Origin: Lysobacteraceae bacterium
GTDB taxonomy: Bacteria; Pseudomonadota; Gammaproteobacteria; Xanthomonadales; Rhodanobacteraceae
DNA: 64,000 nt
Assembly (NCBI GenBank): GCA_028871555.1
Contig: JAGWNA010000007.1
Span: forward strand, 1-64,000
Reading direction: 5' to 3'
This document shows positions 17,403 to 28,510 of this stretch, one piece after another. A program made the translations under genes and the position numbers. How positions within the stretch are numbered: the first letter of the stretch is position 1; every line of letters starts with the position of its first letter. The notes below the pieces were generated by a model. The model searched no databases and was not told where the DNA came from. It saw nothing but the letters and a program-made list of their open reading frames with translations.

Positions 17403-21128
<3,726 letters not shown>

Positions 21129-24100
21129 ATGGCAAGGGGATGCAGGGCGGCACGGGCGTGCATGGCGGGCATTGTGCTGGTGCTCGTGAGCGCGCCGGTC
21201 TGGGCCGACAACACGCTGGAGGACGAATACCAGCAACTGATCAAGGTCAACCAGGATATCCAGCCGCTGGGCGCCAACCCGTTCGGCGAAAACATCAGCC
21301 TGTACGACGGCAGCCTGTCGTTCGAGCAGACCGATATCCGCCTGGCCGGCGACGGTCCGCTGCTGCAGCTGTCGCGTTCGCTCAAGGTCACCGGTACCAG
21401 CGGTTATCCGTTGAATGCCGAGGGTGCCTTTGCCGACTGGGAACTCGATATCCCGCGCATCGAGACGGTCACGGCCAACCAGCAGAATGTCACGGGCTGG
21501 CAAGTGCCGGCGGTCAATCCGTTGGCCCGCTGCAGTGCGTTTCAGGCCCCGCCGGTCGTGCGCAGGCAACAAGGGGCTTCCGATTGGCTCCCCGACACGT
21601 GGTGGTACGGCTATCAGCTGATCGTACCCGGTCAAGGCAGCCAGGAAATGCTGCCGCGCAGTGTCCAGAACACCTTGTCGCCCTCGGTCAGTGGCACGAC
21701 GTTTCCGATCGTGACCAAGCAGAACTGGATGTTCAGCTGCGGCGTGCTGACCGATGACGATGGCGGCGAAGGCTTTACGGCGCTGGCGCCGGATGGCACC
21801 ACCTATACGTTCAACCACATCGTCTATCGTCCGATGGAGGCGATCCGACGGCCGATCGGGTCGGGACCGTTGTCGCCCGCGCACGCGAGTATCGGTCCGC
21901 TGGTGGCGATCGACGATTTCCTGGCGCGCCGCGACGCCTTGATGCTGGTCACCAAGGTCCGCGACCGTTTCGGCAATACGCTCACCTACACCTACAGCGG
22001 CGCGAATCTGACGTCGATCACCGCCAGCGATGGCCGGCAGCTCACCTTGCAATACGTCGCCGGCACGGCGCAGGTCGCCGCAGCGACCCTGCGATCGGCC
22101 ACCGGCGCCACGCGAACGTGGACATACCAGTACGTCAATACGGTCAACGGCGTGGCCGACCCCTCGTTGAGCAAGGTGGTCCTGCCCGACGGCAGCGCCT
22201 GGTCGTACAACCTGGGCGTTTTCGAGCACGCCCAGGTGCTCACGAGCGGCGGGGACTGCACCACGCTGGCCACGCTCGATGGCGGGAGCGCGACGGGCAC
22301 CATCACGCACCCGTCGGGTCTGCAGGGCACCTTCACGGTGCAGGCGACGGTGCACGGCCGCTCGTATGTGCCGCGGCAGTGCTACAGAAACGCCGTCACG
22401 GGCACGACGACGTTTGCGGTCACCCCCTTCGTGTACTACCAGCTCGCCGCGACCGGCAAGACGTTCAGCGGCGCCGGCCTGCCCACCCGGACCTGGACCT
22501 ACACCTACTCCCCGCCGAACGAGAGCTGGCTGCAGGATTGCGGCGGCGGCTGCGTGAGCACCGTCTGGACCGACGTACTCGATCCGGCGGGGCACGATGT
22601 CCGCTATACCTTCAGCAATCGTTACGACGTCACCGAAGGGCAGCTGCTGCGTACGGACTACTACACCGGCGGCAACACCTCGACGATCCTGCGCTCGGAA
22701 ACCAACGCCTACGCGGCGCCCACCACCGGCGCATGGCCGGCGACCTACGTGGCCTCCCTGCAGGACCGCACCAACCAGGCGCAGACCACCGAACTGTCGC
22801 CGCTCAATCAGCGCACGACGATCCAGGAGGGCGACACCTACACGTGGCAGGCACAGGCCTTCAATGCCTTCGCGCAGGTAACCCAGGCGAAGCGCTTCAA
22901 CACGATCGCCGGCCAGAGCGCGATCACCGAGCAGACGACGTACCTCAACGACCTGCCGCACTGGGTGCTGGGCTTGCCGCTGCAGGTCACCAACCTCACC
23001 ACCGGCGAGATCGAATCGGCCAACACCTACAACCTCGGCAACGTGACGCTGCAATCGCGCGCCCGCTTCGGCCAGACGCTGATGAACTACACGTTCAACG
23101 CGCAAGGCCAACTGGCCAGCTTCACCGACGGCAACACCCACACCACCACCCTGGGCAGCTACAAGCGCGGCATACCGCAGACGATCGGCTATCCGGATGG
23201 CCGCAGCGAGACGCTGGTCGTCGACGATTTCGGGCAGATCGGTGCGATCACCGATCAGGCCGGGCACACCACCGGCTATACCTACGACCCGGTCGGGCGG
23301 ATCACCGCCATCACGTATCCGGCCGGCGACGAGGTGGCGTGGTATCCGACCACCTTCGCCTACACCTACGTCACCGCTGCCGAGCGCGGTATTGCGGCCA
23401 ACCACTGGCGCCGCACGGTCACTACCGGCAACGCCAGCACCGTGACCTGGTTCGACGCCATGTTGCGCCCGCTGCTCAGCGATACCTCGATCATCGGCAC
23501 TGCCGGCTCGGATATCACGACGGCGAAAAGCTACGATGAGCGCGGCCTCACGACCTTCACATCGTATCCGGTCGGCGGCGCCCCGGCGCTGTCCACGCTC
23601 ACCGCCGGCACGCATCAGACCTACGATGCGCTGGGCCGGCTGACGCAAACCCAGCAGAATTCCGAACTGGGCATGCTGACCACCACCACGGCCTATCTGT
23701 CCGGTGCCCGCCAGCAGATGACCGACCCCAAGGGCAACGTCACCACCACCCGCTACCAGGTCTTCGATGAGCCCGGCGACGGCGCCGCAATCCAGGTGCA
23801 GGCGCCGGGCGGCCTCACCCAGACCATCGCCCGCGACCTTTACGGCAACCCCACCGCCATCACCCAGTCGGGGCTGTACGGCACGCAAAGCCTGAGCGTC
23901 ACCAAGACGCTGACCTACGACAGCTATCACCGCCTGTGCCGCCGCACCGAGCCGGAAAGCGGCAGCACGGTGCTGGCCTATGACGCGGCCAACAACCTGG
24001 CGTGGAGCGCCGATGGCCTGAGCATCACCGGCACGGGCTGCGGGCAGGAGCAGGTGGCGGCCGCCGCCCGCACCACGCGCAGCTACGATGCGATGAACCG

Positions 24101-25982
24101 GGTGCTGACGATGCAGCCCCCCAGCGGCACGCAGAGCACGCAGACCACCTACGATGCGCTCGGCCAGGCGACCCAGGTCGTGTCCGGCACCAGCGTGTGG
24201 AACGCCACCTACGACTTCCGCGGCCTGCTCACCGGCGAGACCTTGCAGCTTTCCGGCCAGAGCCCCTGGCACCTCGGCTACCTGCACGACGCCTACGGCA
24301 CCGTGCGCCAGCTCATCTACCCCGACGGCACCACGCTGGCCTATGGCCCCGATGCGCTGGGCCGGGCGACCCAGGTGGGCAGCTACGCCAGCCACCTCAG
24401 CTATTTCCCCAACGGCGCCGTGGCCGGGTTCACCTACGGCAACGGCGCCGGCCACGTGGCCGAGCAGAATGCCCGCCAGCTGCCCAGCAACTTCACCGAC
24501 GGCACCGCCGGCACGCTCAACCTCAGTGAGGATTTCAGCTACGACGCCGACGGCAATATCACCCAGGTCAACGACCTGACCGGCGGTCCGCGCAGCAAGA
24601 CGTTCGGCTACGACGGCCTCAATCGCCTGACCAGCGCCACCGCCACCCGCCTGTGGGGCACCGAGACGTACAGCTACGACCCGCTCAACAACCTGCGCAC
24701 GCGCGTCGGCAACGGCCAGACCGTCACCTACACCTACGACCCCGCCAACCGCCTGGCCAGCCTCAGCGGCGTGGGCAGCTTCGTGTACGACAACCGCGGC
24801 AACCTCATCAGCAAGGCGGGCGTCAGCCTGGTGTTCGACCAGAAGAACCAGCTCGCCCAGGTCGCCGGCGTCGCCAGCTACGCCTACGATGCGGCCGGCC
24901 GGCGGGTCCAAAAGACCCCCAGCGGCGGCAGCCCGACGTACTACTTCTACAACCAGGCCGGCCAGCTGCTGTACCAGTGGGAACCGGGCAAGAACAAGGC
25001 CACCGACTACATCGTGCTGGGCCGCACCACGATCGCGCGCCGCATGCAGGTCGGCACGGGAACGCCCACGGTCATCTACAGCTACACCGACCCCCAGGGC
25101 ACGCCCCTGGTCCGCGCCGACGCGCAAGGCACCGTCACCTCGACGTTCGACTACACGTCCTACGGCACCGTGGCCTTGGGCCCACAGCCGGACGGCACCG
25201 GCTACACCGGCCACGTCAACGACCCCGACACCGGGCTGGTGTACATGCAGGCGCGGTATTACGATCCGGTGGCAGGAAGGTTCTTGAGTGTGGATCCGCT
25301 GGCGCCGAGTGCGGGAGGGGTGTTCGATTTCAATCGGTACGCCTATGCCAACAACAATCCGATCGTCAACATCGATCCGGATGGCAGGCAGTACGCACCG
25401 TCGGCTTGTCAAAACCCAGCAGAATGTGCAGCCCGGCGGAAAATGGCAGACGCCGTGGTTGCGCGGGATTCGCAAACGATAGTTCATTTGCTGGGAGGGC
25501 CAATTGCCTCGTTAGCCGATCTTGTCCATGGAATATTCACGGGGGACCACAAGGAAGCCTCTGAAGGTGCCGCGATGGCAATCCTTGGTGCCGTAATCCC
25601 GGAGGCGAATGGAGCTAGAGCCGTAGTGACCGCCTCAGAAGAAGCTCAAGTAGTTTCTTCTGTCACAAGGGGAGCACTGGCGAGAGGGAGAGCATCCGAA
25701 GCGCGGATCCTGATGGAGCTGGGATTACCCAAGAACACGCAAGCTGTTCGGACGGCGGAAGGCGCATCGATCCCTGATGCGTTGACAAGTACTCGTTCGA
25801 TCGAGATCAAGGATGCAATTCGCGTCGAACGAACACGGCAAGTGCGGATTCAAACTGGAGCCGCACGTGAAACCGGACTTGAGTCAGTCCTAATCACTGG
25901 TGAAAGGACATGCGTAAGCGGCCCATGTACACGGGCATTTGATCGCATTATTCGCCGTCCTGACTTGGGGCCGCAGCAATGA
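21129..25982 (+). CDS. RHS-repeat polymorphic toxin with nuclease-like C-terminus
   Basis: A 1617-residue protein from ATG 21129. Residues 1-26 are a Sec signal peptide ending PVWA. The body is built of YD/RHS repeats (many copies of patterns such as YTYDPVGRI and FGYDGLNRL), closing with the RHS core end: TGLVYMQARYYDPVAGRFLSVD-type residues, then NRYAYANNNPIVNIDPDGR at about residue 1420. The last 195 residues form the variable toxin tip. It has a hydrophobic pre-toxin stretch, then a domain with IPDAL (Asp1550) and IEIKD (Glu1559, Lys1561), the D...ExK core of PD-(D/E)xK nucleases, resembling Tox-REase-type tips. Base composition drops sharply at the tip, as is usual for exchangeable tips. 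The stop overlaps the next gene by 4 bp. No VgrG, PAAR or type VI gene is nearby, so Sec-dependent (WapA-like) delivery is the simpler inference. Confidence 0.93.
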   Translation: MARGCRAARACMAGIVLVLVSAPVWADNTLEDEYQQLIKVNQDIQPLGANPFGENISLYDGSLSFEQTDIRLAGDGPLLQLSRSLKVTGTSGYPLNAEGAFADWELDIPRIETVTANQQNVTGWQVPAVNPLARCSAFQAPPVVRRQQGASDWLPDTWWYGYQLIVPGQGSQEMLPRSVQNTLSPSVSGTTFPIVTKQNWMFSCGVLTDDDGGEGFTALAPDGTTYTFNHIVYRPMEAIRRPIGSGPLSPAHASIGPLVAIDDFLARRDALMLVTKVRDRFGNTLTYTYSGANLTSITASDGRQLTLQYVAGTAQVAAATLRSATGATRTWTYQYVNTVNGVADPSLSKVVLPDGSAWSYNLGVFEHAQVLTSGGDCTTLATLDGGSATGTITHPSGLQGTFTVQATVHGRSYVPRQCYRNAVTGTTTFAVTPFVYYQLAATGKTFSGAGLPTRTWTYTYSPPNESWLQDCGGGCVSTVWTDVLDPAGHDVRYTFSNRYDVTEGQLLRTDYYTGGNTSTILRSETNAYAAPTTGAWPATYVASLQDRTNQAQTTELSPLNQRTTIQEGDTYTWQAQAFNAFAQVTQAKRFNTIAGQSAITEQTTYLNDLPHWVLGLPLQVTNLTTGEIESANTYNLGNVTLQSRARFGQTLMNYTFNAQGQLASFTDGNTHTTTLGSYKRGIPQTIGYPDGRSETLVVDDFGQIGAITDQAGHTTGYTYDPVGRITAITYPAGDEVAWYPTTFAYTYVTAAERGIAANHWRRTVTTGNASTVTWFDAMLRPLLSDTSIIGTAGSDITTAKSYDERGLTTFTSYPVGGAPALSTLTAGTHQTYDALGRLTQTQQNSELGMLTTTTAYLSGARQQMTDPKGNVTTTRYQVFDEPGDGAAIQVQAPGGLTQTIARDLYGNPTAITQSGLYGTQSLSVTKTLTYDSYHRLCRRTEPESGSTVLAYDAANNLAWSADGLSITGTGCGQEQVAAAARTTRSYDAMNRVLTMQPPSGTQSTQTTYDALGQATQVVSGTSVWNATYDFRGLLTGETLQLSGQSPWHLGYLHDAYGTVRQLIYPDGTTLAYGPDALGRATQVGSYASHLSYFPNGAVAGFTYGNGAGHVAEQNARQLPSNFTDGTAGTLNLSEDFSYDADGNITQVNDLTGGPRSKTFGYDGLNRLTSATATRLWGTETYSYDPLNNLRTRVGNGQTVTYTYDPANRLASLSGVGSFVYDNRGNLISKAGVSLVFDQKNQLAQVAGVASYAYDAAGRRVQKTPSGGSPTYYFYNQAGQLLYQWEPGKNKATDYIVLGRTTIARRMQVGTGTPTVIYSYTDPQGTPLVRADAQGTVTSTFDYTSYGTVALGPQPDGTGYTGHVNDPDTGLVYMQARYYDPVAGRFLSVDPLAPSAGGVFDFNRYAYANNNPIVNIDPDGRQYAPSACQNPAECAARRKMADAVVARDSQTIVHLLGGPIASLADLVHGIFTGDHKEASEGAAMAILGAVIPEANGARAVVTASEEAQVVSSVTRGALARGRASEARILMELGLPKNTQAVRTAEGASIPDALTSTRSIEIKDAIRVERTRQVRIQTGAARETGLESVLITGERTCVSGPCTRAFDRIIRRPDLGPQQ
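24634..24720 (+). repeat. RHS-core segment duplicated downstream (87 bp, first copy)
   Basis: This segment, encoding ATATRLWGTETYSYDPLNN and the following residues of the RHS core, is identical over 87 bp to 26779-26865, beyond the immunity gene. It is the homologous seed through which toxin tips can be exchanged. Confidence 0.93.
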
Positions 25983-26692
25983 TCGAATCGACACTTGAAT
26001 TTCAGTTTCGGCCTTCGGCGCTACGTTCTCTTGTAGAGATGTTCTGCACGTTGCCAGAGAGGCTCAGACCTACGCACCACAGTCTTGGGGAGGACGAGCC
26101 AGGAAAGCCGATTCAGGATAATGGTAAATTCCTTGATTCGCTGAATGGAGCAAAGTTAGGGCCTTTTCTCCGAGGTCCTGATGTTATGTATGATATCGGA
26201 CTCGCAGGAACCAGGCCGATCATTTGTAATTGTTTCCTTGATGTAGAGCCTGGTCTTGCCGAGCAATTCTTGCTGCATATGGCGGTGGCGCTGCCTAAAT
26301 TCGCTTTTGCTTGTGTACCAGAGGAGCGAGAACATCGAAACCGGGTAATTGTCAAGCAGGGAATCAACACAATCGAAAGCTGGGTAGGGCGTGACATCGA
26401 GAAGTATATTCCAGGCTTCTATTGGCTCACTCTTTTGCCAAATACTTTGGCAGAAAAGCATGGTGTTCCGATCTCAGAGATAGAAAAAATCGCAAAGGAG
26501 CATATGGAGCTTGAAGGGGGCCAACATCTCTTTCGTTTTTATGATCGGCCAGAGGATTGGCAGTCTACGGACAAAGTGGCGAAATTATGCGCCTCCCTAC
26601 CCGGGGTGTTTGATGTGGAGAAAATCAAGCCGCAGGCTGAGGCTACGAAGAATTTTCTTGAACTTGATGAAATGCTGGGAAATTGGAAATAG
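25979..26692 (+). CDS. Putative immunity protein for the RHS nuclease tip
   Basis: A 237-residue soluble protein with no signal peptide, starting inside the RHS stop (ATGA). Tight coupling and the A/T-rich composition shared with the toxin tip mark it as the cognate immunity gene. I do not recognise the family; the most distinctive stretch is YIPGFYWLTLLPNTLAEKHG, followed by HLFRFYDRPEDW. It probably binds and blocks the tip nuclease in the cytosol of the producer and its kin. Function is inferred from position and composition only. Confidence 0.75.
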   Translation: MIESTLEFQFRPSALRSLVEMFCTLPERLRPTHHSLGEDEPGKPIQDNGKFLDSLNGAKLGPFLRGPDVMYDIGLAGTRPIICNCFLDVEPGLAEQFLLHMAVALPKFAFACVPEEREHRNRVIVKQGINTIESWVGRDIEKYIPGFYWLTLLPNTLAEKHGVPISEIEKIAKEHMELEGGQHLFRFYDRPEDWQSTDKVAKLCASLPGVFDVEKIKPQAEATKNFLELDEMLGNWK

Positions 26693-26722
26693 CACAACTC
26701 CCCCGCCGTGCTTTATGACTAC

Positions 26723-26764
26723 GCCCAAGGCCCGCGGCGATGCGGGCCTTGTCGTATGTGCCGG
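26723..26764 (+). repeat. 42-bp hairpin repeat, copy 1 (terminator-like)
   Basis: AAGGCCCGC (26727-26735) pairs with GCGGGCCTT (26742-26750) around a 6-nt loop, 30 bp after the first immunity gene. The 42 bp including GTCGTATGTGCCGG recur at 27767-27808 with one difference. It probably ends transcription of the toxin-immunity pair, though there is no long T-run. Confidence 0.75.
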
Positions 26765-26778
26765 CAAAAGGGACGGAG

Positions 26779-27093
26779 GCGCCACCGCCACCCGCCTGTG
26801 GGGCACCGAGACGTACAGCTACGACCCGCTCAACAACCTGCGCACGCGCGTCGGCAACGGCCAGAACTGAGCTTAGTAAGTCTGCCCAAAAGGGCATCCG
26901 GTCACTCGAAAAACGCATAGCCGAGCATGAAAAGAAGCTTGCCGATTTCAAGGCCAATCCTACGGTGAGACCTGGCATGGAAGGACAGCCGGAGTCGGTA
27001 ATTAAGGCGGCTCAGGAGTCCCAGATTCGTCACTTGGAGAAGGAGATTCAAACTTTCAGGGAAAATATTGATAAGCTCAAAGGAGGACAATGA
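26779..27093 (+). pseudogene. Displaced RHS-core scrap plus orphan toxin tip (frameshifted remnant)
   Basis: 26779-26865 is an exact 87-bp copy of the RHS core. The RHS frame runs into TGA right after the copy (GNGQN, stop at 26868-26870). In another frame the DNA encodes an approximately 70-residue tail (KSAQKGIRSLEKRIAEHEK, then KKLADFKANPTVRPGMEG, ending in KLKGGQ) that resembles the charged, helical C-terminal ends found on other RHS toxins. The core copy comes from mid-core, about 660 bp before the core end, so the join is a deletion scar. It has no start codon with a ribosome site, so it cannot be made alone, but it can serve as a donor for recombination into the active RHS gene. Confidence 0.82.
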
Positions 27094-27094
27094 A

Positions 27095-27496
27095 ATGGCC
27101 TTCCAAGTCGCTAATTATGGTAGCCGAGAAGTCTTCGTTGGAGCACCAAGTGATGTCCCGGTTGTGAATGTTGTCTCTCCATTCGCAGCCCTTGTAACAG
27201 CTTCTAGCCAAGAAGAACTGGATGAGGTTCTGGGTATCGCGAGCAGTTTATTGGAGTTGGGTTGCAAAGAGTTCTGTTGCGTGGGCTTGAAGGCTGAATC
27301 TCTGAACGATCAGCTAGATCTATTAATTGAGAAAGCTGGTCTGCTTGACGTGGTGACAACATGGCACGAGGACTCTTTTGAAGGTTGTGAATATTTTCTG
27401 TTCGGAGCCGGAGGGCAAAGTCTCGCTCTCTACGGACTAATTTCTCGGCATCCCGAATTGCTGGATGCCATGGTTTTGGCAGCTCAGGCTGACTGA
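27095..27496 (+). CDS. Orphan immunity protein (DUF7684-like)
   Basis: A 133-residue cytosolic protein. The ATG at 27095 follows AGGAGG at ideal spacing; that site lies inside the last codons of the orphan tip, the usual arrangement for a tip-immunity pair. The pattern SPFAALVTASSQEELDEV, GCKEFCCVGLK and VVTTWHEDSFEGCEYFLFG resembles DUF7684-type small proteins found beside RHS tips; this family match is from memory and not certain. Being intact while its toxin is broken suggests it is kept to protect against kin that still carry the old toxin. Confidence 0.75.
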   Translation: MAFQVANYGSREVFVGAPSDVPVVNVVSPFAALVTASSQEELDEVLGIASSLLELGCKEFCCVGLKAESLNDQLDLLIEKAGLLDVVTTWHEDSFEGCEYFLFGAGGQSLALYGLISRHPELLDAMVLAAQAD

Positions 27497-27573
27497 CTTT
27501 CAAATGACTGTTATTGTCCGACTGTTACTGCTGTTCATGATTGCCATTAGGGAAGGTCTGATCAATCGGCTTC

Positions 27574-27691
27574 TTGCTCGTCATTCCTGCGAAAGCAGGA
27601 ATCCAGTGCCTTTGCGTTCAATGGTCTACAGACGCTGGATGACCAGCTTCGCTGTTGTAAAGCTCCTCCAGCGTGCTGGGATGACGAGCAA
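27574..27691. repeat. 118-bp inverted-repeat element
   Basis: The ends TTGCTCGTCATTCC (27574-27587) and GGGATGACGAGCAA (27678-27691) are inverted repeats with one mismatch. An internal hairpin CCTGCGAAAGCAGG follows the left end. The CGTCATTCCxGCGAAAGCxGGAATCCAG style is a widespread proteobacterial intergenic repeat. It lies in the 381-bp gap between the orphan immunity gene and pqiC; no gene is seen in that gap. Confidence 0.75.
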
Positions 27692-27766
27692 AATCAGAGC
27701 ATCCTTAGCGGGCAATCTTTGGCATTCCAATAACGGTTCCAGGTTCACTTCCTGATACCCCATAAG

Positions 27767-27808
27767 GCCCAAGGCCCGCAGCGATGCGGGCCTTGTCGTA
27801 TGTGCCGG
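27767..27808 (+). repeat. 42-bp hairpin repeat, copy 2
   Basis: Second copy of the terminator-like hairpin at 26723-26764: AAGGCCCGC at 27771-27779 and GCGGGCCTT at 27786-27794, with the same GTCGTATGTGCCGG tail. The two copies bracket the orphan toxin-immunity unit, which suggests that each toxin-immunity pair travels with its own hairpin. Confidence 0.75.
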
Positions 27809-27877
27809 GATGCGGGAATATAACCGCCGCAGTTATCGGGATCATCCCAGCATAGCTGGGGGTTTACCTTGGAGAAA

Positions 27878-28510
27878 TTAGGGAAGAGCCGGACATGCGG
27901 CTGGCTGACCGTTGCCCAGCGCCCGCGCCACGACGGCGATCTGCGCTGCCAGCTGGCCGATCGCCCGCTGGTGCCCCTGCACCAATGCGTCGTAGCCAGG
28001 CCCGACCGTTTCGACGATGCGGCTGGTGCAGGCCAGCGCGCCGCCGCGAGAGTCATGCAGCACACGTACACTCCATGCTCCCTCGATCAACGCATAGCTG
28101 CCGGGCTGCGAATCGAACCGGCGCAGATCCAGCTTGACCCGCAGCAGCGGCTTGCCGCTGTCCGGCAGGCCGCTGACGTCCTGGTTGTCCAGCTCTCGTG
28201 CGAGATCGGCCGACAGCGCGCTGCGCACTTCGTCATCGAGCGGCGCGATCCAGCGTTCGCCGTCGAGCGGCGCCACCCCCTGCCCGCCGGAGCGCACCAC
28301 CAGCTGCGGCTGGTCGACCTGCGCCGGCACGCCGACGGGCAGCAATTCGAACGGCAGCGATGGCCCGCTCGCGGTTGCAGGCGTACCCGGCGCACCCGCC
28401 ACCTCGGCGGCGGGCGCCACCAGGGTGTAGTAATGCAGCGGTGCCGAGGCGCAGGCAGCCAGGGCCAGGGCAAGCCCCGGTCCGGCCAGGCGCATTCCGG
28501 TGCGAATCAT
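27878..28510 (-). CDS. pqiC: PqiC-like ABC-type transport auxiliary lipoprotein
   Basis: A 210-residue outer-membrane lipoprotein: the signal ends in lipobox LAAC with Cys20 lipidated, then YYTLVAP, the hallmark start of the PqiC/YmbA family. In E. coli PqiC anchors the PqiB tube to the outer membrane for lipid transfer. The central DQPQLVVRSGGQGVAPLDGERW stretch (conserved part LVVRSGGQGVAPLDGERW) is typical. Its start overlaps the pqiB stop by 4 bp, and it is the last gene of the pqi operon. Confidence 0.9.
   Translation of the reverse strand: MIRTGMRLAGPGLALALAACASAPLHYYTLVAPAAEVAGAPGTPATASGPSLPFELLPVGVPAQVDQPQLVVRSGGQGVAPLDGERWIAPLDDEVRSALSADLARELDNQDVSGLPDSGKPLLRVKLDLRRFDSQPGSYALIEGAWSVRVLHDSRGGALACTSRIVETVGPGYDALVQGHQRAIGQLAAQIAVVARALGNGQPAACPALP

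Follow-up and report, generated by a model that had tools for sequence, protein, structure and literature searches.

A predicted Tox-REase-7 nuclease tip on an Rhs protein is followed by a putative immunity protein absent from the searched family libraries in a Lysobacteraceae bacterium

The closest described relatives of the system reported here belong to Tox-REase-7 (PF15649), a nuclease toxin family (restriction endonuclease fold toxin 7) that is characterized by the motifs GxxxE, IxD, ExK and Q, lies at the C-terminus of Rhs proteins and has a putative immunity gene directly downstream (Zhang et al. 2012, PMC3482391). The partners listed for it are ImmHEAT, Imm23, which is marked by a WxW motif, and Imm54 (Zhang et al. 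2012, PMC3482391), and an ankyrin protein has been proposed as the partner in Campylobacter. A comparable pairing is that of TseV and TsiV (VRR-Nuc with DUF3396), and orphan Rhs toxins have been published in Salmonella (PMC9635880 and PMC3967940, respectively). Here, a pair of this general kind is described in a stretch of 64,000 nucleotides from a Lysobacteraceae bacterium (assembly GCA_028871555.1, contig JAGWNA010000007.1, positions 1 to 64,000 of the forward strand), hereafter the window, to which all plain positions refer. It is read as a polymorphic Rhs toxin gene followed by a cognate immunity gene, with the Rhs tip predicted to be a PD-(D/E)xK nuclease of the Tox-REase-7 family, and we give this reading a probability of about 0.85. 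The features that make up the pair are the following.

21129–25982, + strand: Rhs/YD-repeat protein gene, 1617 residues from the ATG at 21129 (PF05593, TIGR03696)
25386–25685, + strand: initial portion of the variable tip, not covered by the Pfam toxin match
25686–25925, + strand: Tox-REase-7-like nuclease domain (PF15649), with G1520xxxE1524, I1548-P-D1550, E1559-x-K1561 and Q1571
25979–26692, + strand: gene for the putative cognate immunity protein, 237 residues, in ATGA overlap with the toxin gene and of no known family

The Rhs protein has the composition of a polymorphic toxin, with RHS repeats (PF05593 RHS_repeat, E 1.5e-22, Pfam), an Rhs-associated core (TIGR03696 Rhs_assc_core, E 1.4e-21, NCBIfam) that ends at approximately NIDPDG, a variable tip after this point, and a downstream gene that recurs together with the tip. 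Its N-terminus resembles a Sec signal when judged by eye and without a predictor, no PAAR domain is reported by Pfam, and an in-frame GTG is found at 21030, upstream of the ATG. The initial annotation had placed the candidate catalytic residues at Asp1550, Glu1559 and Lys1561 and had coupled the 237-residue protein to the toxin by ATGA, and both observations hold: the residues fall at these positions when counted from the ATG at 21129, and the stop codon of the Rhs gene (25980–25982) overlaps the start of the 237-codon gene in an ATGA at 25979–25982. The G+C content is 0.666 in the Rhs core, lower in the tip (0.563) and lowest in the partner (0.478), as for exchanged cassettes.

The tip was matched by PF15649 over residues 96–175 of the last 193, which covers positions 1–83 of the 84 in the profile, with an E of 2.5e-5 (Pfam). 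A six-frame genome search with the same profile scored the tip at 26.8 bits, above the curated cut-off of 25 bits. On this match the idea of a tip of unknown family was rejected, and the D...ExK layout noticed earlier is now backed by a named restriction-endonuclease-fold toxin family. In an alignment of eight rows, made of the window tip, its 66% identical relative (described below) and six canonical copies of the family, the four motifs of Tox-REase-7 are all present, with G7, E11, D37, E46, K48, T56 and Q58 (domain numbering) invariant in 8 of 8 and the first letter of IxD being I or V in every row. The D...ExK motif in the tip is more than chance, as judged from the PF15649 match and from the comparison with shuffled tips given below, and at the level of sequence the family match and this alignment support the nuclease reading of the layout. 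The comparison of the profile of the two tip rows with that of five of the six canonical copies gave an E of 1.1e-5 and a probability of 81.6%. Unlike established members, the window tip is divergent, given that its identity to the six canonical copies is 19–25% and its Pfam score lies at the cut-off; it is most suitably classified as a divergent Tox-REase-7 member, as far as its sequence allows it to be placed. Other matches of the tip were rejected: the one to BrxB (E 0.0035, 15.1 bits) involves only tip residues 124–171 and is weaker than that to Tox-REase-7, and two NCBIfam matches (E 0.049 and 0.086) are far below their cut-offs.

In the proposed mechanism, the Rhs shell would present the C-terminal tip, which would be released inside a neighbouring bacterium and act there as a metal-dependent PD-(D/E)xK nuclease that cuts nucleic acid. 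The metal site would include D1550, E1559 and K1561, whereas E1524 would belong to the first helix and Q1571 would lie beyond the site. The 237-residue protein would bind the tip and block it in the producer cell and its sisters. With respect to delivery, a single TssB match, pointing to the type VI secretion system (T6SS), was obtained in the source genome, TssB being the sole part of this system that was sought. Some PD-(D/E)xK toxins cut RNA, and the substrate is not told by the motifs alone, so a tip that has the restriction-endonuclease fold and has RNA rather than DNA as its main target has to be considered; we regard it as unlikely, though the best placed of the alternatives.

The second component of the pair is the one that departs from what has been described. 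The 237-residue partner has no match to any Pfam family at E up to 10, to any NCBIfam, PHROGs or PADLOC family at E up to 1, or to any solved structure in the PDB at E up to 1, which bears out the earlier remark that it belongs to no recognised family. Each of the partner types known for Tox-REase-7 was considered separately for the window partner and for the related 237-residue protein described below. At E up to 10 in Pfam, neither protein has a HEAT match as would be found in ImmHEAT, neither has a WxW motif or a Pfam match that would point to Imm23, and neither has a match of any kind that would point to Imm54, a family for which Pfam includes a model. No ankyrin match was found in the window partner. 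The partner is therefore not assigned to the HEAT-type, Imm23 or Imm54 proteins, given the lack of Pfam matches and the profile comparison with canonical partners presented below, and it differs in this from the partners listed for Tox-REase-7. As far as the searches of its sequence indicate, it represents a putative immunity family that none of these libraries contains. The Tox-REase-7 literature consulted names partners of the HEAT, Imm23, Imm54 or ankyrin type only, and an earlier mention of the window partner elsewhere in that literature is possible.

The system of TseV and TsiV offers another origin for this protein, which would then be distantly related to the TsiV (DUF3396) immunity proteins, its family being unrecognised and not new. 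A PG-[FL]-YWLT segment is conserved in both 237-residue proteins and may resemble TsiV, which is a tentative lead. The two systems are alike in joining a PD-(D/E)xK toxin to a downstream immunity protein, and they may share a blocking model, given that TsiV3 has been modelled to neutralise its PD-(D/E)xK effector by covering the DNA-binding helix (PMC9635880). They differ in that TseV represents a different nuclease clade and is carried on PAAR-type T6SS effectors, while the window partner has no match to its inhibitor: PF11876 matched neither 237-residue protein at E up to 10, a search in which the HMMER filters may lose very weak matches and drop very remote relatives, and a profile built from both partners finds no TsiV structure. 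Among 29 genomes of the order, none yielded a TsiV sequence. A TsiV relationship is rather improbable, and somewhat less credible than a preference of the tip for RNA.

The canonical copies of Tox-REase-7 in the same order provide a direct term of comparison. The six-frame search with PF15649 matched 6 of the 398 genomes of the order, the source genome included, and the five other genomes hold six canonical copies (L011–L015 and L017). Each of the six tips is directly trailed by another protein gene, either overlapping or adjacent, so that the window partner stands in the same place as the canonical ones. The canonical partners have 190–225 residues in five cases (that of L017 counted from an internal ATG) and 356 in L013; five of the six align as one family, L013 having been left out of the alignment. 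HEAT repeats were found by Pfam in two of the six, above the cut-off in L013 and below it in L015, and in none of the other four. In sequence, unlike in position, the window partner is unrelated to the five aligned canonical partners, the comparison with their five-row profile giving a probability of 0.04%. In this set, the canonical tips of L012, L014 and L017 are carried by short frames of 184–336 residues instead of full Rhs proteins, and two tandem, similar partner genes are present in L014.

Recurrence of the pair is rare: of 233 genomes of the family, two have it. A search with the tip domain at E up to 0.001 matched the source genome and one other genome of the same genus (G823, locus L020), where the tip is 66% identical to that of the window. 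The ATGA overlap is found again in this genome, the tip frame ending at 899 and the next gene starting at 896, and this gene (L020:896-1609) codes for a protein of 237 residues that aligns along its full length with the window partner at 30% identity (E 3e-37) and for which Pfam gives no match either, at E up to 10. Since pair, overlap and partner length agree between the two genomes, it is concluded that the pair recurs. The proportions of nonsynonymous (pN) and synonymous (pS) differences between the two loci are 0.24 and 0.84 for the toxin domain, 0.49 and 0.82 for the partner, and 0.21 and 0.64 for the end of the core; in each of the three, amino-acid changes are less frequent than silent ones, with the partner changing fastest, and dS is saturated for toxin and partner. 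A short gene of the Rhs type lies behind the G823 pair (L020:2044-3488); it has a start of its own, its product begins with a signal-like N-terminus, and its tip has a HEIQHVMDD stretch like that of a zinc metallopeptidase when judged by eye, and an overlapping frame of 200 residues comes after it.

A profile made from the two partner rows matched 3 of the 233 family genomes, namely those of the two rows and one from another genus (G686). The latter match (L023) is weak (E 4.5e-4, positions 9–66), and the stretches similar to the partner lie in two frames, for which reason this copy looks broken. The tip-domain search reports no match in the other 231 family genomes, which should include G686. 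Among 336 genomes of the class, the tip profile matched the source genome only, with 14 of up to at least 27 candidates scored in some genomes, and the partner likewise matched only the source genome among 369 genomes of the class. Among 398 genomes of the order, the partner matched the source genome and a single stretch in G692, and this 30% identical stretch of 61 residues, with an internal stop and an E of 0.004, is taken as chance. When the partner and the tip were compared with genome contigs, 15 and 61 stretches were matched, respectively, and none was confirmed; this was done with single-protein queries, which detect close relatives only, and the scan may omit records close to the genome of the window. 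Nothing useful was found in viral contigs, in plasmids (four queries) or in phages (partner query). That the downstream gene is an unrelated passenger and not an immunity gene is very improbable: its protein has no known immunity domain, but the ATGA overlap, the homologue of the same length at the same place in G823 and the gene directly behind each of the six canonical tips speak against it.

Several observations weigh against the reading of the locus as a Tox-REase-7 toxin with its cognate immunity gene. The Pfam score of the tip is 24.9 bits, which is 0.1 bit below the curated cut-off, that of the whole Rhs protein is 20.9 bits, and the G823 relative scores 23.3 bits, also below the cut-off. 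When a profile made solely from the six canonical copies was run on 5552 sequences (the two tips, 5000 shuffled tips and 550 window frames), the tip received 15.2 bits with an E of 0.0055 and the whole Rhs frame 11.2 bits; the relative of the tip obtains 14.0 bits and the best of the 5000 shuffled tips 9.8, so the margin over shuffled tips is modest. Both AlphaFold models are poor (mean pLDDT 37.5 and 41.1), and that of the tip, made from the single sequence and with the latter value, is not interpretable for a restriction endonuclease fold; given that both models failed, no fold is shown by them. No solved structure matches the tip or the partner by sequence beyond chance. The Rhs gene of G823 is cut by the start of its contig, no promoter-like site was found in 25300–28000 of the window, and neutralisation is argued from position and co-occurrence only, in two genomes of one genus.

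The DNA that follows the pair contains what appears to be a displaced cassette, with the following features.

26723–26773, + strand: G+C-rich stretch able to form a hairpin, located after the immunity gene; a second copy with 90% identity lies at 27767–27817, after the displaced cassette
26779–26865, + strand: 87-nt perfect repeat of the Rhs core at 24634–24720, likely the scar of a displaced tip
26866–27093, + strand: probably the tail end of an older toxin, whose frame differs from that of the core fragment, suggesting a broken cassette
27095–27496, + strand: orphan immunity-like gene, intact, 133 residues, with a weak DUF7684 match

The displaced cassette (26779–27496) is thus bounded by two alike hairpin stretches (26723–26773 and 27767–27817). 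The RNA fold of 26695–26775, which contains the first hairpin copy, has an energy of -38.2 kcal/mol and a z of -3.32, and the stretch is not among the five sites of the terminator scan. The Pfam matches of the probable toxin tail are all under their cut-offs and mostly of coiled-coil types, and the match of the 133-residue protein to PF24733 (DUF7684) has an E of 7.8e-4 and 19.6 bits, the cut-off being 26. Read in the simplest way, an older pair gave way to the present tip and partner, leaving behind a toxin that is now broken and an immunity-like gene. Orphan Rhs tips of Salmonella reportedly lie as displaced tips behind the main Rhs gene, and the displaced cassette of the window differs from them in keeping only 87 nt of core and an out-of-frame toxin tail. 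The source genome has a second Rhs gene (L021, G000:C4, 5098–10164), which runs off the end of its contig and has fibronectin-like repeats in its last part, as seen by eye.

Neither the toxin family nor the Rhs layout nor the exchange of cassettes is new, and in these respects the locus adds one further case to a very large number of Rhs toxin pairs. The initial annotation had suggested a new toxin-immunity combination as possible, and this is supported. It had not seen that the toxin belongs to an existing family, so that the novelty is confined to the partner and to its combination with the tip; the pair is found again in one other genome. On balance, we lean towards the view that the partner founds a new immunity family, which would have co-evolved with a divergent Tox-REase-7 clade in this bacterial family and would neutralise it through a surface unrelated to that of the HEAT-type inhibitors directed at the canonical clade. 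This would add an uncatalogued immunity family, paired with a known nuclease toxin family, and annotators could give a name to a gene that is now without a family. It would also enable a direct comparison of how a HEAT-type protein and the window partner block the same kind of active site. If true, unrelated inhibitors would have arisen against one nuclease fold on at least two occasions within one order.
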